Source: Nitrospira sp. (GTDB taxonomy: Bacteria; Nitrospirota; Nitrospiria; Nitrospirales; Nitrospiraceae). Taken from it: a stretch of DNA of 64,000 nucleotides. Below are positions 3,863 through 20,901 of the stretch, piece after piece. The position numbers were made by a program, and so were the translations under genes. The first letter of the stretch is position 1; every line of letters starts with the position of its first letter. The DNA lies in assembly GCA_005116835.1 (NCBI GenBank), contig SWDM01000014.1:177536-241535 (forward strand), written 5' to 3'. The notes beneath the pieces are model-generated. The model made no database searches, was not told the DNA's origin, and saw only the letters and a program-made list of their open reading frames with translations.

Positions 3863-5278
3863 GTGGTTGGATCCAACGTTCTATTGCGAGTGGTGATCGG
3901 GCTCGGTGTGGGGGGCGCGCTCCTGGCTGGAACAGGTCTGGCTGAGAATCGGGCGATTCCTCCTGTGGCGAGCGGGGGAGAACTTCAGGCGCAGGTCAAG
4001 GTGACTGCGACCAAAGTGATTCCTGCTGTCGTCAGCATTGCCTCCACAGTGATGGTCCGCGATCAAGCGTTCAGCGACGAAGCACTGCCGTTCGGGTTGT
4101 TCAAGGACGTCCCGTCGCGGCGGCAGTACGGCCAAGGTTCCGGTGTCATCGTGTCGTCGGATGGCTACATTATGACGAATAACCATGTCATTGCCGACGC
4201 CGTCGATGTAGAAGTAATTCTTGCCGACCGGCGGCAATTCAAAGGGCGTGTAGTGGCCACCGATCCGAAAACCGATGTGGCGGTGGTGAAGATTCAGGCG
4301 ACCAATCTTCCGACCGTGACATGGGGAGATTCGAGCACGCTCGCCGTCGGCGAATTTGTGCTCGCGATCGGGAACCCGCTCGGGTTAAGCCGCAGCGTGA
4401 CGTTCGGCATTGTCAGTGCCGTCGGTCGCGCGGATGTCGGGGTCGCGGATTTCGAAGATTTCATTCAAACCGATGCCCCCATCAATCCAGGCAATTCCGG
4501 CGGGGCCTTGGTGACGCTCAATGGGGAGTTGGTGGGGATCAATACGGCTATTGCCAGCCCCACAGGTGGCAGCGTCGGCGTGGGCTTCGCCATCCCGAGC
4601 AATATGGCCAGGGCCGCCATGCAGAGCCTGCTCAAGACCGGTCATGTCGTTCGTGGGTTCCTCGGCGCCTCGACGCAAGACGTGACGCCGATATTGGGCA
4701 AGGTCTTTCGTCTTCCCGACGTGAAGGGAGCGATCGTGACCGATGTGCAGGCGAAAGGGTCCGCCGAGAAAGCCGGACTCAAGCGCGGAGATGTGATCGT
4801 GAGATTCGACGGGCGCGACGTGATGGATAGCGGACATCTTCGAAACCTCGTGGCTGCCTCGACGATCGGGAGCAAGCATCGGCTGGACCTCATGCGCGAG
4901 AGTAAACCCTACCAAGCCGAATTGGTTGTGCAGGAAGCGCCGCGTGAACGGGTCAAGAAGAACCAGGCTGCGTCGTCCTCAGCCGCCACGGCCCATCCCC
5001 TTACCGGCGTCGTCTTCGACGATGTTACAGCGCCGTTGGCTCGGCAAATGGATCTGGCTGTGACCAGCGGGGTGGTGGTCACGGACATCGAAGAAGGAAG
5101 CCTGGCTGAATCCTCCGGTCTCCAGCCGGGAGACGTAGTACTGGAACTCAACCGTCAGCCCGTTCCAAACTTCTCCGTCTTTCAGCGATTGGCCGATCCG
5201 ATTAAGCCATCCGATCTTGCCCTCCTGCTGGTCAACCGGCAGGGGAACGTCATGTACATCCCCGTCAAGGGTGAGTAG
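3863..5278 (+). CDS. degP: HtrA/DegP-family periplasmic serine protease
   Basis: A Do-like protease of about 471 residues. A hydrophobic signal segment is followed by a trypsin-fold domain with the triad His108 (Asn-Asn-His-Val), Asp138 (Thr-Asp-Val-Ala-Val) and Ser212 (Gly-Asn-Ser-Gly-Gly-Ala). Two PDZ domains follow (about 250-335 and 380-465), the DegP/DegQ layout. It should degrade or refold damaged envelope proteins. The frame is open upstream to an ATG at 3758, but that extension is the translation of the repeat at 3729-3836. The GTG at 3863 has an AAGGA site seven bases upstream and gives a clean signal peptide, so it was taken as the start. The gene lies downstream of copA in the same direction, consistent with an envelope stress cluster. 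A P1 palindrome follows the stop. Confidence 0.92.
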   Translation: MVGSNVLLRVVIGLGVGGALLAGTGLAENRAIPPVASGGELQAQVKVTATKVIPAVVSIASTVMVRDQAFSDEALPFGLFKDVPSRRQYGQGSGVIVSSDGYIMTNNHVIADAVDVEVILADRRQFKGRVVATDPKTDVAVVKIQATNLPTVTWGDSSTLAVGEFVLAIGNPLGLSRSVTFGIVSAVGRADVGVADFEDFIQTDAPINPGNSGGALVTLNGELVGINTAIASPTGGSVGVGFAIPSNMARAAMQSLLKTGHVVRGFLGASTQDVTPILGKVFRLPDVKGAIVTDVQAKGSAEKAGLKRGDVIVRFDGRDVMDSGHLRNLVAASTIGSKHRLDLMRESKPYQAELVVQEAPRERVKKNQAASSSAATAHPLTGVVFDDVTAPLARQMDLAVTSGVVVTDIEEGSLAESSGLQPGDVVLELNRQPVPNFSVFQRLADPIKPSDLALLLVNRQGNVMYIPVKGE

Positions 5279-5289
5279 GGGGAGTGCAG

Positions 5290-5376
5290 GGTGACCAGAC
5301 GCCTCACGTGCTCGCAGACCGCGCACAATAAGAATGTGCTCGGTCGATGCGCGCAGTCTGAGGCGACCTGGTCACC
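5290..5376. repeat. Palindromic element P1, copy 1
   Basis: Arms GGTGACCAGACGCCTCA and TGAGGCGACCTGGTCACC flank the P1 core (CGCGCA, then AATGTGCTCGGTCGATG, then CGCGCA). It sits 11 bases after the HtrA stop codon and may act as a transcript end. The stretch 5377-5530 up to the HupE stop has only a degenerate half-copy of the core. Confidence 0.8.
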
Positions 5377-5530
5377 CCGCTTTAGGGGAAGTAGATTCCA
5401 GGGTGAATGCACACACTCAGAAGGATGATCTGGCTGTTCCACTCCTATCCTCCTGAGGCCGCTCGTTGCATGGGCACAGGAGACTCACCGGGCCATCTTT
5501 CTCCTGCTGGCAGTCTTTCCCTGCATCCTG

Positions 5531-6655
5531 CTAGAGAGGGATCAGTTTGAGATCGAAGGTTCGTTCGATGAGCCAGGCGCAGGCGAGACCGGCGATGGCG
5601 AGCGAACCGCTCACCAGCACCAGCCGTTGATAGGACCAGGATCTTCTCAGACCGTAAGCCATCGGCAAGAACATCGCGACGATCGCCAGTTGACCCACCT
5701 CCACTCCCAGATTGAAACTCACTAAGCTCAGCGCGAGAGATTCTTTTGGCAGACCGAGGTCGCTCAGCACCGTAGCAAACCCAAAGCCGTGAATCAGGCC
5801 GAACAGAAATGCCACTAACCAACGGCGCTGGGAAAGGGCTGGATAGAGATTGGCGCATGCAGCATAGATAACCGATGCGGCGATTGCGGATTCGACCAGT
5901 CGCGATGGTAGCGCGATCAGGCCTAGGGTCGCCAAGCCGAGGGTGATCGAGTGGGCGAGGGTAAAGGCGGTGACGATCGCAACGACTTCTCCGAGAGCGG
6001 AGAAGAAATCGGGAGTCGATTCCCACCGGCCTCCGGCTCTCCGCAGCACGGAGGGTAACAGTAATGCCAGCAGAAATAGCACGTGGTCATAACCAAGCCA
6101 GATATGCCAGATACCTTCCTGTGCATATTGTCGGATCTGTCGCCATGCCGAAGTCGTACCGATCGTAAATTGTTGAGCCGGCGATTCCTGACTGAAGATC
6201 GCGGCCAGCGTTTCGTTTCCGCCCGTGAGTTTCAGCAGCCCCTTGTGCTGGGCATCGAGCTCGAAGAGGAGCCGATAATCGATCGAGAAATCGCGAATGG
6301 GGGCTGGACAGGTTGTGGTGAATCGCAGCACCGCATAGGTGCCGTCTGTGTGATGGTCGATCAACTGATCGGCGATGGCTGTTGAACAGGGCCTCTTGCC
6401 GGTGTGAACGGTCAGATGCGAGAACGCATAGGAGGCGATGGCATCGTGCCTGGCACGCACCTCTCCCCAGGTAATGGCTCCGTCGCCGTCGGTATCCAAG
6501 CCGATTGCATAATCCAGGTCGCGCAACGCGATATCCCATCGCCCTTCGGCCTGTGAGTCGTTCACCGTAAAAGAGAGATAACTGTCGCTGGGCTTGTGGG
6601 CCCAGGCGGGAGCGCTCAGAAGAAGAAGTATCGCCAGGGCAAGGATTAGCCGCAT
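5531..6655 (-). CDS. HupE/UreJ-2 family membrane protein
   Basis: About 374 residues with a cleavable-looking signal (hydrophobic stretch ending Ala-Trp-Ala), then an extracytoplasmic domain of about 160 residues. That domain carries an EF-hand-like Asp-x-Asp-Gly-Asp-Gly loop near residues 53-58. A C-terminal membrane domain of six or seven helices follows, with the HupE/UreJ hallmark Gly-Tyr-Asp-His-Val-Leu-Phe and a later Gly-Leu-Ile-His-Gly-Phe-Gly-Phe. HupE and UreJ proteins are linked to nickel supply for hydrogenase and urease; the '-2' subfamily with a long N-domain is less well understood. The ATG overlaps the TPR gene's stop by one base (TGATG), so the two are translationally coupled. 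A GGAGGAGA site precedes the start. Confidence 0.8.
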   Translation of the reverse strand: MRLILALAILLLLSAPAWAHKPSDSYLSFTVNDSQAEGRWDIALRDLDYAIGLDTDGDGAITWGEVRARHDAIASYAFSHLTVHTGKRPCSTAIADQLIDHHTDGTYAVLRFTTTCPAPIRDFSIDYRLLFELDAQHKGLLKLTGGNETLAAIFSQESPAQQFTIGTTSAWRQIRQYAQEGIWHIWLGYDHVLFLLALLLPSVLRRAGGRWESTPDFFSALGEVVAIVTAFTLAHSITLGLATLGLIALPSRLVESAIAASVIYAACANLYPALSQRRWLVAFLFGLIHGFGFATVLSDLGLPKESLALSLVSFNLGVEVGQLAIVAMFLPMAYGLRRSWSYQRLVLVSGSLAIAGLACAWLIERTFDLKLIPL

Positions 6656-7857
6656 CAGGATCTCTCCTCCGGAAACTGCGCGGCCAGTTGTTGGAGCCGC
6701 AAGTCCTCCACATGATTGGCGCGCAGCCACGCGATGACCGGTCTCGCTGCCTCTCGGCTGCCAAAGGCTAGCGCGCTTTCGAGCAAGAGACGCGCGTCCC
6801 AGGGTTCTTTTTGGATCTTCCAGTTGGCTTGTGCGAGGCTGAGCGCCGTCTTTGGATCGTGAAGCAGCGCAAGGGTGAAGCGCGCCTCCTCTCGCACATG
6901 CACGTTGGTGCCTCGTTCTCGGCCAGCAGCAAAGCGAGCTGCGAGCTCAGCTATGTGTTCCTTCGATCCGGACAAGTGGAGCGCCTGCTCGGCCAGCGTC
7001 AGACGCAGGAGCAATCCGTCGGCTCTGGTCTCATGCTGTAAAAGGGTGACAACCTTTTGTGCGTGTCCTTGATCGAGAAGGAAATCGGCATAGGCGCCTA
7101 AGAGATACTGATCCTTTACATCGAGACTGCGCGCGTCGGTAAAATATTGTTCTGCGGTCTGTGCGTCTCCCGTGCGAGTTGCGGCTTCCGCCAGAATGGT
7201 GAAAATCCAGAGACGTTCGCGCGCTGAGACTCCTGGACGGTCCAGGAGCGAGGTCAGCTGCTCACGGCTCTTGGTGGCATGGCCGGTCAGGCTTGCAATG
7301 TCGCCCAAACAGGTGAGCGCGACATGCCGTCCTGCAAGGCGAAACAGCGGCTGGCAGGCGCGCCGAGCCTCTTCGTATCGTCCCTGGACCTGGTAGATCG
7401 ACGCTTTAGTGAGCCAGGCTTGGGCGTTCGTGGGCTGCATCCTCAGAACCGTATCGAGATCGGAGAGGGCGAGGTCGAACTCGTGGGCGTTTTGGCGGAT
7501 CGTCGCCCTTAACAAGAGCGTTGAGGGTGGAGGCGTCGCGTGATTCAACCAGGGAGCCAGTACGGCTTGCGCCTGACCAAGAAACCGCGGATCCCCTTCC
7601 GATCGTGACTGTTCGATGAGCCTGGTCGCAAGGGAAACAGCCGCATCTACGTTCTGTGGGTCATGCAACAGATTTGCGCGCAGTGCCCTGGTCTCTCTCG
7701 CAACTGGATCGGTGGCTTTGACTGTGAGCTGTTCGAGTACTTGATTGTCCTGTTGAGGGAGAAAAGGTTCTCCTGCTGCGATCGGGGCTTGGCTCAATGC
7801 AAGCCACCCGATTGCGATCAAACCGCTCACTGTGCGTATTCCGTTCATCGCGTTCAT
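6655..7857 (-). CDS. Tetratricopeptide-repeat protein, exported
   Basis: About 400 residues. A signal peptide (hydrophobic run ending Pro-Ile-Ala-Ala-Gly) is followed by about ten TPR-like helical hairpins; the clearest are around residues 95-175 and 210-270. TPR proteins scaffold multi-protein complexes, and this one is predicted to be periplasmic. It lies between the TonB-like gene (one base from that gene's stop) and the HupE-like gene (one-base overlap), so all three are in one transcript. Two in-frame ATGs (7857 and 7848) are possible starts; neither has a strong ribosome site, as expected for coupled translation. Confidence 0.75.
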   Translation of the reverse strand: MNAMNGIRTVSGLIAIGWLALSQAPIAAGEPFLPQQDNQVLEQLTVKATDPVARETRALRANLLHDPQNVDAAVSLATRLIEQSRSEGDPRFLGQAQAVLAPWLNHATPPPSTLLLRATIRQNAHEFDLALSDLDTVLRMQPTNAQAWLTKASIYQVQGRYEEARRACQPLFRLAGRHVALTCLGDIASLTGHATKSREQLTSLLDRPGVSARERLWIFTILAEAATRTGDAQTAEQYFTDARSLDVKDQYLLGAYADFLLDQGHAQKVVTLLQHETRADGLLLRLTLAEQALHLSGSKEHIAELAARFAAGRERGTNVHVREEARFTLALLHDPKTALSLAQANWKIQKEPWDARLLLESALAFGSREAARPVIAWLRANHVEDLRLQQLAAQFPEERS

Positions 7858-15780: not shown

Positions 15781-16371
15781 ATGAAGCCAATGAGAAGAGT
15801 ATTGCCACGCATCTACTTCAATCGTCCCACGCTGACCGTGGCCCGGTCGCTGGTCGGCAAGTATCTCGTTCGGGTGATCGACGGTCGTACGCTCGTGGGG
15901 AAAATCGTCGAAGTGGAGGCTTATGTAGGTTCAGAGGATAAGGCCTGCCATGCGTCGAAGGGGAGAACGCAGCGGACGGATGTCATGTTCGGTCCTGCAG
16001 GGATTGCGTATGTCTATCTCATCTACGGGATGTATCACTGCCTGAATGTGGTGACGGAGCGAGAGGAATTTCCTTCGGCTGTATTAATTCGTGCGATTGA
16101 AATCGATGGTAAGTTGATCGATGGGCCAGGGCGGCTCTGTCGAGCGATGCAGATCGACCGGAGTTTCAATCGTGCGGATCTCACAATCGGTGAATCTCTC
16201 TGGTTCGAAGACCGAGGAGTATCGGTCAAGAAGGAAGAGGTGGGGACTCACCCCCGAATCGGTGTCGATTACGCGGGCGAGTGGGCTGCGAAACTCTGGC
16301 GATTCAGGCTTCGTACGGTCACAGCCTCCACAGGGACGTGCCACACAAAAAAACAGGGAGGCGCCGGATAG
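15781..16371 (+). CDS. 3-methyladenine DNA glycosylase (AAG/MPG family)
   Basis: A 196-residue protein of the AAG fold, which removes alkylated purines from DNA to start base-excision repair. Visible family motifs are Ala-Arg-x-Leu-Val-Gly-Lys, Ile-Val-Glu-Val-Glu-Ala-Tyr (with the catalytic Glu), Asp-Lys-Ala-Cys-His-Ala, and Ala-Tyr-Val-Tyr-Leu-Ile-Tyr-Gly-Met-Tyr. These cover the whole length of bacterial members (about 180-210 residues). The ATG at 15781 was taken; another lies three codons in. The P2 palindrome ends 15 bases upstream, leaving little room for a promoter, so it may be read from the receptor gene. Confidence 0.9.
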   Translation: MKPMRRVLPRIYFNRPTLTVARSLVGKYLVRVIDGRTLVGKIVEVEAYVGSEDKACHASKGRTQRTDVMFGPAGIAYVYLIYGMYHCLNVVTEREEFPSAVLIRAIEIDGKLIDGPGRLCRAMQIDRSFNRADLTIGESLWFEDRGVSVKKEEVGTHPRIGVDYAGEWAAKLWRFRLRTVTASTGTCHTKKQGGAG

Positions 16372-16410: not shown

Positions 16411-16776
16411 CTACTCGATCTTTCGATCACCTGCGATCTTTGTGGCGGAAGTCACAGGAGGGGCGATCTTGATCTGAGCACCCTGGACCTTCGGAAGTTG
16501 TCCTGCGCCCTGTCCTTCGGTAATCCGCGCATTGTCAGACTTGCTCAGGCGCTGTTCGCTATGTTTATCGGAGTTCTGTGACTTGAGTAATGTCGAGTCG
16601 CCATGCGCATCAGCCTGGCCAGGATCGTTGGCAGTTGGCTGACCCGTTACAGGGCTTCCGCTGTTCTTCATGGGGTAGCCTTCATGTTTGGGAAGGAGCG
16701 ATGGATTCGCGGAGGCCATCGAGAGCGCAAAGAGGACACCGGAGACGGTCGCAACAGTGCCGATTACGAGCTTCAT
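16411..16776 (-). CDS. Small exported protein of unknown function
   Basis: About 121 residues. A signal peptide (hydrophobic run, then Ser-Met-Ala-Ser-Ala) precedes a hydrophilic, low-complexity mature part rich in Ser, Asp, Gly, Gln and Lys, probably disordered. No domain is recognised. The ATG at 16776 has an AAAGGAG site; the frame is open 19 codons further but without a site. It is monocistronic, ending at the terminator beside it. Confidence 0.65.
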   Translation of the reverse strand: MKLVIGTVATVSGVLFALSMASANPSLLPKHEGYPMKNSGSPVTGQPTANDPGQADAHGDSTLLKSQNSDKHSEQRLSKSDNARITEGQGAGQLPKVQGAQIKIAPPVTSATKIAGDRKIE

Positions 16777-16892
16777 ACGCCTACTCCTTTGAATAAATGA
16801 TGGTGGCTGGAAACCCTGCGTTTTCAATTTCAAGGTGGAATCGGATGCCGCGAATCATAGCCAGGATGAGGGGGGTCTGTCAAAGGAAGAAT

Positions 16893-17250
16893 GGGAGGGG
16901 AGCAGCCAGGTGCCCTTCTTGCTCGCAAAACGCGCACGATAGGAATGTGCTCGTTCGATGCGCGCAGTAAAGGGCAGCCTTGGCCACTCCCCTTGAGGGC
17001 AAAGTTGAGGAAGAGGATAGGATGGGGGGGTAGCCTATTGGCCTTCCTTGCTCGCGCAACGCGCGGTCTCAGAAGGATGAGAATGGTAGGCTAGTCGTCC
17101 TCCTGCTCGCGGAACGCGCACGATAGGAATGTGCTCATTCGACGCGCGCAATCGAGGATCGGCCAGGCTACCCTTGAAAATGTATTGGGGAATTGAAAGA
17201 ACGCGCGCAGTAAAGGGCAGCCTCGGCCGCTCTCCTGTAGAGAGGCGTAG
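16893..17250. repeat. Cluster of four P1 palindromes
   Basis: Tandem P1 elements at about 16893-16994, 17031-17094, 17090-17168 and a half copy at 17195-17250. Each has the CGCGCA-ATAGGAATGTGCTC-TGCGCGCA type core, with different outer arms that still pair within a copy (for example AGCAGCCAGGTGCCCTT with AAGGGCAGCCTTGGCC). The last copy abuts the integrase fragment. Open frames across this stretch are translations of the repeats and are not genes. Confidence 0.85.
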
Positions 17251-17266
17251 GGGAGGATCTCTCTGG

Positions 17267-17356
17267 CTCCACAGTGACGTCAAGACAACGATGATGTATA
17301 TTCATGTCCTCAATCGCGGCACTGGGGGCGTTTGTAGTCCGGTAGATGGACTTTAA
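17267..17356 (+). pseudogene. intI: C-terminal remnant of an integron integrase
   Basis: About 29 codons ending in TAA read Leu-His-Ser-Asp-Val-Lys-Thr-Thr-Met-Met-Tyr-Ile-His-Val-Leu, then Gly-Gly-Val-Cys-Ser-Pro-Val-Asp. This matches the last conserved block of IntI tyrosine recombinases, including the catalytic Tyr region (His-Ser-Asp-x-x-Thr-Thr-x-x-Tyr-x-His-Val) and the terminal Gly-Val-x-Ser-Pro-(L/V)-Asp. Everything upstream is replaced by P1 repeats, so the gene is dead. It faces the same way as the cassettes, unlike class 1 integrons, where intI is divergent. Confidence 0.8.
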
Positions 17357-17407
17357 CCCCCCATACGGAGGTGCTGTTATGCGGATCCGCATAAGCATTG
17401 TTAGGAC
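17357..17407 (+). other. attI-like integration site
   Basis: Between the integrase stop and the first cassette lies an 18-bp perfect palindrome, TTATGCGGATCCGCATAA (17377-17394). It is followed by CATTG and the core G/TTAGGAC, with the crossover expected between 17400 and 17401. The cassette's own attC begins with GTCCTAAC, the exact complement of this core, supporting the site assignment. Confidence 0.7.
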
Positions 17408-18025
17408 TTTGCCTCACCGAAATAACATCCTCATGTTCTTAGTCACCCAGGAGTGCATATGAAGAAACTTTTCTCTATTCTCTTCATTGTCGTCATTACC
17501 GCAGCGACCACATTACCGGTTCAAGCGAAGGACACCAGGACCTGTACGCAGATAAGTGCACAGGAAATTGCTGCCTTATTTGACCGTTGGAACGCTTCGC
17601 TGGCAACCTTAGACCCCGATAAAATGGCGGCTCTCTATACGCCGGAGGCAGTGCTGCTGCCGACGCTATCGAACAAACCGCGTACCAATCATGAGGAAAT
17701 CCGCGATTACTTCGTGCATTTCCTCGAAAGGAAACCGCAGGGCACAATTGACTTCCGTATCATCAAGATCGGTTGCGATAGCGCTTCTGATACTGGTCTA
17801 TATACCTTCACGCTGCACGACACAAAGGGCAAGGCCAAAAAAGTGTCAGCCCGATATTCCTATGTTTACGAATACCTGGACGGTCAGTGGCTGATCGAGC
17901 ATCACCATTCTTCAGCGATGCCCGAACCGGTCAGGGTGAAATGAGATCCGTCGTTTAGTAGAAAATAAAAAAGTCCTAACAAAGCACTGCAGCCGACTGC
18001 TTCCAGCAGCGGCTGAGCGCCAGCG
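17401..18025 (+). mobile_element. Integron gene cassette 1 (SnoaL-like protein)
   Basis: The cassette runs from TTAGGAC (17401) to the G of the attC right core (18025). It holds a single gene and a 59-base attC. The left core of its attC, GTCCTAAC, is the exact complement of GTTAGGAC, the sequence formed when the cassette is circular. This is the defining feature of a true cassette and is seen directly in the sequence. Confidence 0.85.
17459..17944 (+). CDS. Exported SnoaL/DUF4440-like protein (SgcJ/EcaC type)
   Basis: A 161-residue protein. A signal peptide (ending Val-Gln-Ala) precedes a cystatin-like alpha+beta barrel of about 125 residues of the NTF2/SnoaL superfamily. Typical features are Ala-Leu-Phe-Asp-Arg-Trp-Asn, Ala-Leu-Tyr-Thr-Pro-Glu-Ala-Val-Leu-Leu-Pro, a middle Ile-Arg-Asp-Tyr-Phe and a final Trp-Leu-Ile-Glu-His-His-His-Ser-Ser. 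Members often bind small molecules or dimerise; no specific substrate can be named. The ATG has a CCAGGAG site. It is the only gene of cassette 1, sits about 58 bases from the crossover point, and lacks an obvious promoter, as is usual for cassette genes. Confidence 0.8.
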   Translation: MKKLFSILFIVVITAATTLPVQAKDTRTCTQISAQEIAALFDRWNASLATLDPDKMAALYTPEAVLLPTLSNKPRTNHEEIRDYFVHFLERKPQGTIDFRIIKIGCDSASDTGLYTFTLHDTKGKAKKVSARYSYVYEYLDGQWLIEHHHSSAMPEPVRVK

Positions 18026-18031
18026 TTATGC
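17973..18031 (+). other. attC site 1 (59-base element)
   Basis: Exactly 59 bases from GTCCTAAC to GTTATGC. The inner part folds as CAGCCgaCTGCT-TCC-AGCAGcGGCTG, a hairpin with the asymmetric bulge typical of attC bottom-strand recognition. The right core GTTATGC marks the start of cassette 2. Confidence 0.85.
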
Positions 18032-18048
18032 CGCAACATTGAGCCTGG

Positions 18049-18078
18049 TTGACATACTATATTTAGTATAGTCATAAT
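18049..18078 (+). promoter_or_regulatory. Promoter and operator of the HigBA cassette
   Basis: TTGACA (18049-18054), an 18-base spacer and CATAAT (18073-18078). The spacer contains the inverted repeat ATACTATATTTAGTAT (18054-18069), well placed to be the antitoxin operator. Transcription would start within a few bases of the toxin ATG at 18084, so the message is probably leaderless. Confidence 0.75.
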
Positions 18079-18083
18079 ATAGC

Positions 18084-18365
18084 ATGTGGCGCATCGAAGA
18101 ACACCGGCGGGTGGATAAACAGGCTGTGGCGGTTCCGAAGGATATCCTCAAGCGATATGAAAAATGGAAAGACATCGCGGAAATATCAGGCCCGCCTGGA
18201 CTCCGTCTGATCAGGGGGTTTCGTGATGAAGCCCTTTCAGGCGAGTGGCGAGGTTACCGATCTTGCCGGCTCGGACTTCAGTGGCGCGTTATCTACCGTG
18301 TGGTTGCCAAAAAATTGCTTTTCCAGGTCGCATCGATAACCGCACATGACTATAGGAGGCCATAA
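18084..18365 (+). CDS. higB: RelE/HigB-type mRNA interferase toxin
   Basis: A 93-residue protein of the RelE superfamily. A basic, compact sequence has Pro-Lys-Asp-Ile-Leu-Lys-Arg-Tyr-Glu-Lys-Trp near the N-terminus. The core strand pattern is Gly-x-Arg-Ser-Cys-Arg-Leu, then Trp-Arg-Val-Ile-Tyr-Arg-Val, then a late His-Asp-Tyr-Arg. HigB toxins cleave ribosome-bound mRNA. The toxin precedes the antitoxin, the HigBA order, and its TAA is directly followed by the antitoxin ATG. No ribosome site is visible before this ATG, which fits the leaderless transcript predicted from the promoter position. Confidence 0.85.
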   Translation: MWRIEEHRRVDKQAVAVPKDILKRYEKWKDIAEISGPPGLRLIRGFRDEALSGEWRGYRSCRLGLQWRVIYRVVAKKLLFQVASITAHDYRRP

Positions 18366-18623
18366 ATGAAAGAGTACCGTTCCGCCAAAAAGCATGTCGG
18401 GGTTTCGGTCGGCGAGTCCGTGCGCATTCTTCGTGAGCTTCAGGAGTTGAGCCAAAGCCAGCTGGCCCGTCTTACCGGGATTCCCCAAGCCACTATTTCG
18501 GCCATTGAGAATGACCGAGTCCGTCTGGGTGTCGAGCGTGCCAAGGTTTTCGCCCGGGCACTCAAGTGCCATCCCGGCGTGTTGGTTTTCCCCGGCTGGC
18601 AACTGCCCAACAAGGCGGCATAA
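18366..18623 (+). CDS. higA: HigA-type XRE antitoxin
   Basis: An 85-residue protein with a helix-turn-helix of the XRE/Cro family (about residues 20-75). Gln-Glu-Leu-Ser-Gln-Ser-Gln-Leu-Ala-Arg-Leu-Thr-Gly is followed by Pro-Gln-Ala-Thr-Ile-Ser-Ala-Ile-Glu-Asn-Asp. It should bind HigB and repress the promoter at 18049. A GGAGG site lies within the end of the toxin gene. Its stop codon TAA is embedded in the left core of attC2 (GCGGCATAAC), a compact fit of gene and recombination site. Confidence 0.88.
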   Translation: MKEYRSAKKHVGVSVGESVRILRELQELSQSQLARLTGIPQATISAIENDRVRLGVERAKVFARALKCHPGVLVFPGWQLPNKAA

Positions 18624-18690
18624 CACGTCGTTCCACTGAGAGCTCGGTCCCGCTGGCGCGAACCCCTGTCTGGTGAACTCTACGTTAGTT
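18618..18690 (+). other. attC site 2
   Basis: From GCATAAC to GTTAGTT, 73 bases. Outer pairing GTTATGCCGC/GCGGCATAAC is formed with the cassette start. Inner segments ACGT and GTTC-CAC pair with GTG-AAC and ACGT. The right core GTTAGTT deviates slightly from GTTRRRY. Confidence 0.75.
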
Positions 18691-18957
18691 GTCATGGGTC
18701 ATATTGTCGGCAAGACTTGACGATGCTTGCATGCACATCCTGTGGGGAAAGAACTGACCGGTTTACGTGTCACATGTTTCCGCCCTGCAGTCCGTAAGCG
18801 ATCGTTCATGCCGAATCCGAGAGGGGTTTTCGCCTTCTGGAGCGACTCACAGAAACGTACACAACCATCGGAACTGGTAGCGTTGGCTCTAGATTCGGAG
18901 CGATGTGGGCTAGGACTTCCATGGTTGGCATGAGCGACATATCAGGCGGCAGACCCA
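18691..18957. other. Spacer after the cassette array, no gene seen
   Basis: If a third cassette began at TTAGTTG, its attC should begin with the complement CAACTAAC; none is present before the P2 element at 18958. The array therefore ends here or the third cassette is truncated. No convincing coding sequence was found. Confidence 0.5.
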
Positions 18958-19084
18958 CAGGATGCTCAAAAAGTTCGTCCAGCAAGGCCGCAGCCGATGA
19001 AAGCACCGGAGGCGTAGCCTCTGGGCTACGTTGAGGATGCTTTCGAGGAGAGAACGCCGATGGCGGACTTTTTCAGCGTCCTGC
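18958..19084. repeat. Palindromic element P2, copy 3
   Basis: Arms CAGGATGCTCAAAAAGT and the complementary ACTTTTTCAGCGTCCTG. The central hairpin is TAGCCTCTGGGCTA and the GCGTTCTC block is present in inverted orientation. It ends five bases from the stop codon of the kinase-like gene. Confidence 0.85.
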
Positions 19085-19089
19085 GAATA

Positions 19090-20901
19090 TTAGGCTGGGC
19101 GGCGTGCGGGAGGCCGTCGGCGGCCGCGTCCGCGATAGGACGGGCCATGGCTGAGGCCTGGGAGGCGGATGGTGACGGTGGTGCCTTCACCTGGCGCGCT
19201 GCCGATGGCGATTGAGCCGCCATGTTCTTCGACGATCTTCTTGACCGTGGCGAGCCCCAGGCCGATGCCGGCCTGCTTTGTGGTGAAAAACGGTTCAAAG
19301 ACCTTGTCGACGATTTCTGCAGGAATAGGCACTCCGTCGTTCTTGATGAGGATGTGATCTTCCACACCTCGTCCCGCGCGGTGCTGGGTGACTTGAATAT
19401 GCAGATGCCCGCCTGGGTTCATCGCTTCCCGCGCATTCTTGAAAATACTGAGAAAGACTTGCTGGAGCTTGCCTTCGTCGCCGCGGACCGGCGCGATCAT
19501 CGTCGCGTAGTCCTTGGTCACCTGTATTCTGGTGACTTCGAGGTCAGTTGCTATCACCGTGAGCGCGCTCTCGATCACTTCGGGGATGCGGAGGAGTCGT
19601 CGGGTGAGTTCAAGCGGTTTCGCGAAGTCCAAAATTTCATTCAAGATGGCTTCGATACGGATCAAATCGCGCATCGCGTTCTCGACGCGTGTCTGTGGGT
19701 CGAAGTCGAGGATCCCTTCACCCGTGACTTCTTCCAATTGGGCGCGGATCGAGGCGAGAGGCTCACGGACTTCTGTAGCCAGGAACATACTGAACTCGCC
19801 GATGGCGGCCTGTCGCTCTTGTTTTCTGATTATGGGCTCCGAGGGGCCCGGAGCTGAGGTTCCTCCTGCTGGTCCGGTGGCCGGGGTTTGGCTGGTCGGC
19901 GCCGGAGCCGGGGCTTGGAGAATCTCCGCGATCTTCACAATCGTCGGCTCAAGCGTGCGGGCATCTGTCTGCTGGTAGCGGTCGGCTTCTTTCGAGGCCA
20001 GGGTAATCGTTCCGCCTACTTGTCCTCGGACGAAGAACGGCACGACGAGCGAGGAGAGCAGCCGGTCCTTGAAGAGATATTTATGATCGAGGAACCGTCC
20101 CTGAGTAGAAGCGAGATCATGATCCACACGCGGCTTCCGATGGCGGACCGCCCATCCGGAGGCTGAGCTGTCGAGTGTGAGACGGTGGCCCGGCTTGAGA
20201 TCTTTCTTTCCGTCCTTCTGTTCGCTCTTGAGATCGCCGGCCAGTCCCAGAACTTCGACATTGCCCGCGAGCGGATCGTAGCGGCAGGCCCAGATACGGT
20301 CGTAGGCGACGTATTGATTGGCGTCCGTCAATGCGGCAATGATCTTGTCTTGGAGTTCCGGTGTGAGCAGCGACGCAGGAGCCGTGAACAGCTCTGCCGG
20401 AGAAGGGGTCGGGGGAATGGGCTCATGGGCGACAAACGGCCGGCTGAGCAGGACATTCATATCGAAGAGGCCTTCGCGATCCAGCGCTTTGGTGATCTCG
20501 TCGCTGGCCTGTTCGATCAAGCCCTTCTCTTTTTTCGCAAAGGTGGCGCTTTCTTTTCGTCCGATGACGAGGAAACCGTACGTCCTGGTTCGATGCTGGA
20601 GGGAGACTCCAAGCAGCGACTTTGTGCCCGGCGTAATCAAGCGAAGGCGAATGGTGCGTCCGCCCTCCTGATCGTTCGTTGGGGACAAGGTCGAGATGGA
20701 GGGGGCCGACAGAGTTCTGAGAATGGCCTGAACGTCCCGTGGGGTGAAGCCTCGTGCGGCATGTCCGACGAGCGGGCCTTGGTCGCGGTGGAACAAGGCG
20801 GTGAGCGCGGCGTCGACCGGTAACTCGTTGAGGACGGATGTCAGGGTCCGCTGGAGATGCGTTTCAGGGATTGGTTTGCTTTGTGGATCTGCGGGTGTCA
20901 T
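19090..20901 (-). CDS. Histidine-kinase-like protein lacking the phospho-accepting His
   Basis: A 603-residue cytoplasmic protein with two GAF-like regions (about 10-150 and 175-330), a Pro/Ala-rich linker (about 330-355), an H-box/dimerisation helix region (about 365-430) and a HATPase_c domain (about 465-585). In the H-box the expected His-Glu-(I/V)-Arg-(N/x)-Pro reads Thr376-Glu-Val-Arg-Glu-Pro; the Thr codon ACA was checked in the DNA. The N-box Asn is kept (Lys-Asn-Ala-Arg-Glu-Ala-Met). The G1 box, normally Asp-x-Gly-x-Gly, reads Asn521-Asp-Gly-Val-Pro. The G2 box Gly-Ile-Gly-Leu-Gly-Leu is intact. No membrane helix and no response regulator beside it. It may bind nucleotide without autophosphorylating, a scaffold or sensor role rather than a kinase. 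Confidence 0.85.
   Translation of the reverse strand: MTPADPQSKPIPETHLQRTLTSVLNELPVDAALTALFHRDQGPLVGHAARGFTPRDVQAILRTLSAPSISTLSPTNDQEGGRTIRLRLITPGTKSLLGVSLQHRTRTYGFLVIGRKESATFAKKEKGLIEQASDEITKALDREGLFDMNVLLSRPFVAHEPIPPTPSPAELFTAPASLLTPELQDKIIAALTDANQYVAYDRIWACRYDPLAGNVEVLGLAGDLKSEQKDGKKDLKPGHRLTLDSSASGWAVRHRKPRVDHDLASTQGRFLDHKYLFKDRLLSSLVVPFFVRGQVGGTITLASKEADRYQQTDARTLEPTIVKIAEILQAPAPAPTSQTPATGPAGGTSAPGPSEPIIRKQERQAAIGEFSMFLATEVREPLASIRAQLEEVTGEGILDFDPQTRVENAMRDLIRIEAILNEILDFAKPLELTRRLLRIPEVIESALTVIATDLEVTRIQVTKDYATMIAPVRGDEGKLQQVFLSIFKNAREAMNPGGHLHIQVTQHRAGRGVEDHILIKNDGVPIPAEIVDKVFEPFFTTKQAGIGLGLATVKKIVEEHGGSIAIGSAPGEGTTVTIRLPGLSHGPSYRGRGRRRPPARRPA

Follow-up and report, generated by a model that had tools for sequence, protein, structure and literature searches.

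Clusters of attC sites lacking an integrase (CALIN) are recognised by the presence of at least two attC sites with no integrase nearby, as defined in the section of the IntegronFinder 2.0 paper used here, whose figures for the phylum Nitrospira comprise two CALIN, both in Ca. N. inopinata (PMC9024848). Mobilisation of CALIN cassettes in trans is an accepted idea, to judge from the relevant portions of two further sources (PMC9668308, PMC12444791). The Xanthomonas integron at the ilvD locus is an ancestral platform at a fixed locus, with an often truncated intI and contents that vary by group; in the part of that study drawn on here, its authors place the cassette dynamics before intI inactivation and cite earlier work in which strains with the same lesion usually have identical arrays (PMC12444791). 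In Treponema, the excerpted account has intI transcribed toward attI, and T. phagedenis retains attC sites, but no intI, at the syntenic position (PMC3607928). Finally, cassettes of the delta-attI type, from mobile integrons, indicate that shortened attI sites can recombine, according to the portion of the source at hand, in which the shortened sites lie inside resistance cassettes and were tested with IntI1 (PMC12901181). In one open-access library, little was found on Nitrospira integrons, and no title centred on the subject.

Here we describe a locus of Nitrospira sp. (genome G000; assembly of 3.94 Mb in 24 contigs, completeness 99.3%) that shares traits with each of these systems. In the window, by which we mean the whole 64-kb stretch of DNA analysed, positions 17267-18690 hold the 3' stump of an intI gene, an attI site and two cassettes, in one direction throughout. 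With two attC sites, the second of them weak, and no complete intI near, the stretch falls within the CALIN definition; it differs from a CALIN in that it keeps attI and the end of intI, that this dock is present in at least ten species and that there is evidence of cassette turnover after the truncation. The locus shares with Treponema an intI that points toward attI, whereas a stump-plus-attI dock and cassette exchange after integrase loss are not described in the excerpted account of that genus (PMC3607928). Unlike in Xanthomonas, where the same lesion usually goes with identical arrays (as cited in the part of PMC12444791 used here), one lesion goes with different arrays in Nitrospira species, and unlike in the delta-attI cassettes (PMC12901181, same portion), the shortened attI is the receiving site. 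Of the features that mark a chromosomal integron, an attI adjoining intI is present, and so are attC cassettes in a single orientation, although attC2 is weak; a complete intI in cis is missing, with model positions 287-315 of 315 left. The integron reading of the window holds, with the integrase truncated in cis. Truncated chromosomal integrons and CALIN are known; what is new is the evidence for turnover at an inherited attI without a cis integrase. As judged from sequence comparison, we think it probable that this is a chromosomal integron whose intI was cut to a stump and whose attI kept gaining and losing cassettes by means of an integrase acting in trans.

An earlier, sequence-only reading of this DNA had described an integrase C-terminus of about 30 codons, an attI-like palindrome and core behind it, and two cassettes in which the left core of attC complements the cassette's own first bases, the first attC being 59 bases long; all of these features were found where that reading had placed them. 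The stump (17267-17356, plus strand, stop codon included) is the C-terminal end only: its frame closes with DVKTTMMYIHVLNRGTGGVCSPVDGL and a stop codon, the ORF ending at 17356, and the integron integrase profile TIGR02249 matches 17267-17353 at model positions 287-315 of 315 (288-315 in a second search). The last 29 codons scored 31 bits in the genome search and 35.9 bits (E 5e-9) when run alone. In NCBIfam at E≤1e-3, two integron-integrase models and nothing else matched the stump. A remnant of a Xer recombinase, against which the sequence-only reading had asked for the fragment to be compared, finds no support, zero XerC/XerD models matching at that threshold in NCBIfam. The stump keeps the end of the motif that carries the catalytic tyrosine. 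Since only this end of the motif is left of the enzyme, the stump alone cannot be active. The same reading had pointed out that intI faces the same way as the cassettes, an orientation seen in the window and beside the complete intI genes of G000 and G014; the intI at the Xanthomonas ilvD locus presumably has the usual divergent orientation. Because intI lies upstream of attI and runs in the same direction, a deletion of its 5' part would spare a stump and leave attI and array intact beside it. A consensus scan found three promoter-like sites in the region, compared with 1.4 on average in shuffles of it; one, TTGACA-18-CATAAT (18049-18078, plus strand, 11 of 12), lies inside cassette 2, and a weak match (9 of 12, to be read against that same shuffle average) lies inside the stump, where one might speculate that it accounts for the stump's persistence.

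The attI core that follows (17374-17402, plus strand) is of a short form, in which a palindrome at 17377-17394, TTATGCGGATCCGCATAA, is fused to the core CATTG|TT, running straight into CATTG|TTA, with cleavage after 17400. In the full form, seen adjoining complete intI genes in G014 and G152 and measuring 175 bp in G014, two near-identical palindromes stand about 120 bp from each other and enclose a promoter-like pair; this recurrent pair, recognised by eye, resembles TTGRAN-17-TATKGT and is not in the short form. In the window and in most aligned orthologues, the two palindromes are fused to one and the intervening stretch is gone. Stump and first palindrome together are 83% identical over 120 nt to their counterpart beside the complete G014 intI. 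The short form was also seen at G028:C8:644214 (L068) and G005:C242:1578 (L206), with attC-model matches downstream of both, and the exact attI core pattern gave 0 matches in viral contigs.

In the first cassette (17401-18025, plus strand), the opening bases pair with the cassette's own R'' along 11 bp, and in the second (18026-18684, plus strand) they do so along 10 bp. Cassette 1 contains an ORF for a SnoaL-like/TIGR02246 protein (17459-17944, plus strand) with a signal-peptide-like start, as judged by eye, and ends in attC1, which at 17973-18031 (plus strand) measures 59 nt. Cassette 2 encodes a toxin-antitoxin pair, namely a RelE/YafQ-like toxin (18084-18365, plus strand; TIGR02385 above cut-off, PF15738 below cut-off) and an HTH antitoxin (18366-18623, plus strand; PF01381), and ends in attC2 (18615-18690, plus strand), with a closure of 10 bp and a weak fold. 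A linear R''/R' attC finder missed both sites, since R'' pairs with the start of its own cassette and not with that of the next one, and a circular-closure search was used instead. Closures of 10 bp or longer number two in the real sequence, whereas 200 dinucleotide-shuffled versions of the 2 kb have 0.015 on average; 0 of these 200 held two such closures and 1 of 200 held a chained pair. We also built an attC covariance model from 15 training sites, seven from other loci of G000 and none from the window. Its only matches in the 64-kb window are on the plus strand, at 17974-18031 with E 2.3e-6 and at 18618-18689 with E 0.11, so that the covariance check proposed by the sequence-only reading came out clearly for attC1 and weakly for attC2. 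Genome-wide, attC1 has an E of 1.4e-4, and attC2 is missing from the list of attC sites at E≤1 (150 of 1828 candidates scored). Because the training sites were picked by the same closure rule, 14 of the 15 in the circular form, the R''/R' pairing is no evidence alone; the position of the matches in the window is. Linear folding of the bottom strand gave z -2.74 for attC1 and z +0.74 for attC2, the latter no better than shuffles. The weakness of attC2, taken alone, would agree with inverted repeats that arose by chance next to a fragment of a phage-type recombinase; we find it hardly credible that this is no integron at all, given the independent attC model, the profile matches to IntI only, the shuffle test and the edges seen across species (below). 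A third cassette after 18684 was considered and rejected, as the sequence there is the right flank common to other species.

The genes for the kinase, the small protein and the glycosylase around the integron keep the same order across Nitrospira loci, mostly with less than 1 kb between kinase and small protein, and it is this interval that the integron occupies in some species of the window's clade. On the left of the window's integron lie a 3-methyladenine DNA glycosylase (15781-16371, plus strand; NCBIfam TIGR00567) and a small protein (16411-16833, minus strand), both kept in relatives; the conserved right neighbour is a GAF histidine kinase (19090-20901, minus strand). Intergenic repeats at 16890-17245 (around CGCGCAGT...GGGCAGCC), which also occur beside the locus in relatives, stop close to the point where intI is truncated. 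On the window, zero matches came from Rfam (gathering thresholds) or from ARAGORN.

A DNA search with stump and attI matched 56 of 175 family genomes at E≤0.001; the stumps in G015 and G025 escaped it and came to light by protein comparison alone, so that absence from the DNA search is no proof. Among the 25 genus genomes with the kinase, downstream DNA was compared for 12, plus G008 and G017, with other stump loci added separately; metagenome assemblies are included among the comparison genomes. A stump is present at this locus in 11 related genomes, G000 included, several of whose contigs show one side only; a further, eroded stretch in G008, stump-like by eye only, is kept outside this count. 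Ten of the 11 loci align across a common junction between non-intI sequence and stump (17240-17266 on the plus strand of the window; alignable in 10 species), with gaps of 12 nt in G025 and 11 nt in G103 and small indels in others. The remaining one, G015, has other sequence before the stump and a full-length attI, and was excluded from the junction alignment and the identity counts. Stumps elsewhere differ in length, from which it follows that truncation is common and that the junction seen here does not mark a fixed end. A kinase tree places the stump in 9 of the 23 rows of one clade (support 100/99), and these rows fall on either side of the clade's first fork, itself supported at 80/71; G015, with its different junction, is one of the nine, four rows without a stump in the interval are nested in the clade (G005, G016, Baikal-G1 and G002, the last with N in its interval) and 10 rows carry no stump label. 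This distribution requires 5 changes, a number as low in 229 of 500 shuffles, so that the kinase tree alone does not separate a single gain followed by losses from spread between species. The case for one origin of the truncation thus comes from the common junction and not from the tree, and we infer a single ancestral truncation, with cassettes that are later than it. Two further observations concern copy number: the orthologous locus of G004 holds tandem stump-attI copies (L199, G004:C22:188000-207304, 4330-4467 and 7512-7641), the second preceded by a 29-aa kinase fragment, and G017 has a second stump-attI copy beside its kinase (L202 2437-2566).

Comparison of the orthologous loci revealed fixed edges around differing contents. 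Across 21 pairs from the seven species with a readable short attI (G020 and G017 left out for a broken attI core or one lying at the end of a contig, G103 for a full-length attI), mean pairwise identity reaches 91.5% in the attI core, with values of 75.1% for the flank, 79.7% for the stump and 75.7% for the linker, and is 28.1% over the next 30 nt, which belong to the first cassette; with G020 and G103 added, the nine-species figure for the attI core is 82.6%. No two of the seven species have a first cassette in common, and array DNA matches extend over 26-45 nt, with other loci only. Downstream, attC-model sites at E≤1 are present in five of the six species besides G000 (G012, G004, G026, G025 and G023; G012 and G004 also supplied training sites), the attC scan leaving out G027, whose contig ends 355 bp on. 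Of the 16 sequences aligned at the right edge, seven (G000, G026, G025, G023, G008, G103 and Lac Pavin) become similar at the last core site, G|TTAGYTG, and have in common the first bases of the right flank (18685-19089, plus strand, in the window); in G020 and G028 the similarity sets in just past this site, and the other seven cannot be aligned there. The only content at this locus clearly common with the window is cassette 2 in G008. Among other members of the clade, G004, G009 and G017 have in common a 209-aa ORF that follows an attI at this locus (protein identity 81-86%), and G004 and G008 have 727 bp in common at 93%; some content is thus kept among close relatives, and turnover is not fast.

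Could the species instead hold different remnants, left by deletion, of a large ancestral array that stopped changing when intI was lost? Several observations would fit: the stump is no active enzyme, close relatives hold some cassettes in common, deletion is common (BLAST found no stump in the interval of G002, G005, G016, Baikal-G1, G006, G008 and G009), and the identical arrays usual among Xanthomonas strains with one intI lesion, as cited in the portion of PMC12444791 used here, offer a precedent. However, seven first cassettes with nothing in common begin at the same cleavage point, both window cassettes are too similar to copies elsewhere at silent sites, as detailed next, and copies of the SnoaL cassette sit at other loci behind different attI sequences. 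We therefore regard an array static since the loss of intI as unlikely. The sequence-only reading had held the cassettes to be frozen unless an integrase acts in trans; the first half of that statement is probably wrong, as the cross-species comparison indicates turnover after the truncation, and the proviso has become its key part, given a complete intI on another contig and the turnover across species.

Silent sites bear on the timing of cassette movement. Fourfold-site identity between the window cassettes and their copies in other species is 81-88%, compared with 53-65% for neighbouring genes. For SnoaL, it amounts to 56/67 against G017 (pooled neighbours 484/823; one-sided Fisher p 2.4e-5) and 59/67 against G008 (pooled neighbours 398/708; p 6e-8), and for toxin and antitoxin to 37/44 and 38/47 against G008 (one-sided Fisher p 1.3e-4 and 5e-4), counts that are small per cassette and are set against 4-5 neighbour genes, with TerC included for G017. 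As a control, homologues at another locus of G004 gave 16/38 for the toxin and 19/45 for the antitoxin, not above the G004 neighbours (399/742), so that the toxin and antitoxin genes are not conserved at silent sites in general. The excess in fourfold-site identity indicates that both cassettes moved between lineages once these had diverged; should the truncation be ancestral, this movement probably postdates it. In G017 and G008, the SnoaL cassette occupies other loci, and the similarity of the three sequences (G000, G017 and G008) begins exactly at the cleavage point CATTG|TT. Of 175 family genomes, three, G000 among them, hold a SnoaL copy with more than 80% identity, and toxin homologues (75-85%) adjoin attC-model matches in G004, G132 and G040.

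Movement between lineages might also have come about by homologous recombination, with whole arrays swapped through the common flanks and site-specific steps confined to integrase-bearing donors. The flanks are indeed common, at about 75-80% identity, and the toxin-antitoxin cassette, which in G008 occupies the locus that it has in G000, with the adjoining 40 bp or so of right flank also similar, could have been carried in this way. Such swaps do not match the SnoaL cassette, which differs in locus and in attI, nor a boundary that lies exactly at the core site, and donors with a complete intI at the locus number 0 among 32 genus genomes; we give this explanation a rather slim chance.

Turnover in trans, the reading that we prefer, raises the question of where the integrase would come from. 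The search for a complete intI that the sequence-only reading had recommended yielded one in G000, a 508-aa ORF on contig C10, which is not the window's contig (TIGR02249 464 bits, cut-off 265); it faces its own array, as the stump does. Above this cut-off, intI is present in 2 of 32 genus genomes, G000 and G014, and eight of the nine genus genomes in the junction alignment have none in their assembly; at this locus, a complete intI was found in none of the 32. The complete IntI of G000 belongs to another lineage, about 57% identical to that of G014, and its own attI differs. At least 16 attC-model matches at E≤0.01 were obtained in G000, the training sites among them not being independent. 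The attI of G014 has nine matches in G000, on C6, C10 and C16, the window's included (three of them only 38-53 nt); one of them falls within the complete integron's array, and the rest have no intI match nearby, except for the window's stump. At C10:131947, a further intI stump is accompanied by an attI-like stretch and a cassette.

Several side observations concern these other copies. The second attI within the array of the complete integron (L009, G000:C10:180000-198000, about 7140-7290 of the reverse complement) has, by eye, a decayed stump-like tail. On C16 (L212, G000:C16:36000-49000, about 4000-7700, minus strand), attI-cassette units without intI were seen, with a repeated module (TTAATGCGRCAGGGCTGAGGACCGC...) between attC and the next attI; the module also occurs after attC in the C10 array, and attI copies may be spreading as units. 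The Nitrospira IntI ORFs (L071 2516-3772; L009 12850-14373) are extended at the N-terminus, ahead of the SAM-like domain, by about 100 residues or more; this extension is similar in the two lineages and has no Pfam match.

Taken together, these comparisons suggest that recombination at the dock is, or formerly was, carried out by an IntI encoded elsewhere, which might stem from a gene such as the C10 intI or from integrases since lost. The short fused attI appears still to be the site of first-cassette change and hence is likely usable, and a core of about 30 bp would then suffice as the site. Going further, one could picture that in Nitrospiraceae a single integrase, or none, serves many inherited attI docks dispersed along the chromosome, the roughly 30-bp attI and the stump being self-sufficient, exchange running clade-wide and lifelong, and the stump being kept as a promoter; we put this forward tentatively, as a possibility that we doubt more than we favour.

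Integrase-less cassette clusters are common and often read as degraded integrons. At this locus, a common lesion, a conserved attI and low silent divergence combine into a natural test of a dock over species-level time, and its outcome, as far as sequence can tell, is that a dock without a cis integrase probably still receives cassettes. The analysis points to a short attI and to an integrase that lend themselves to joint testing, in a nitrifying lineage.
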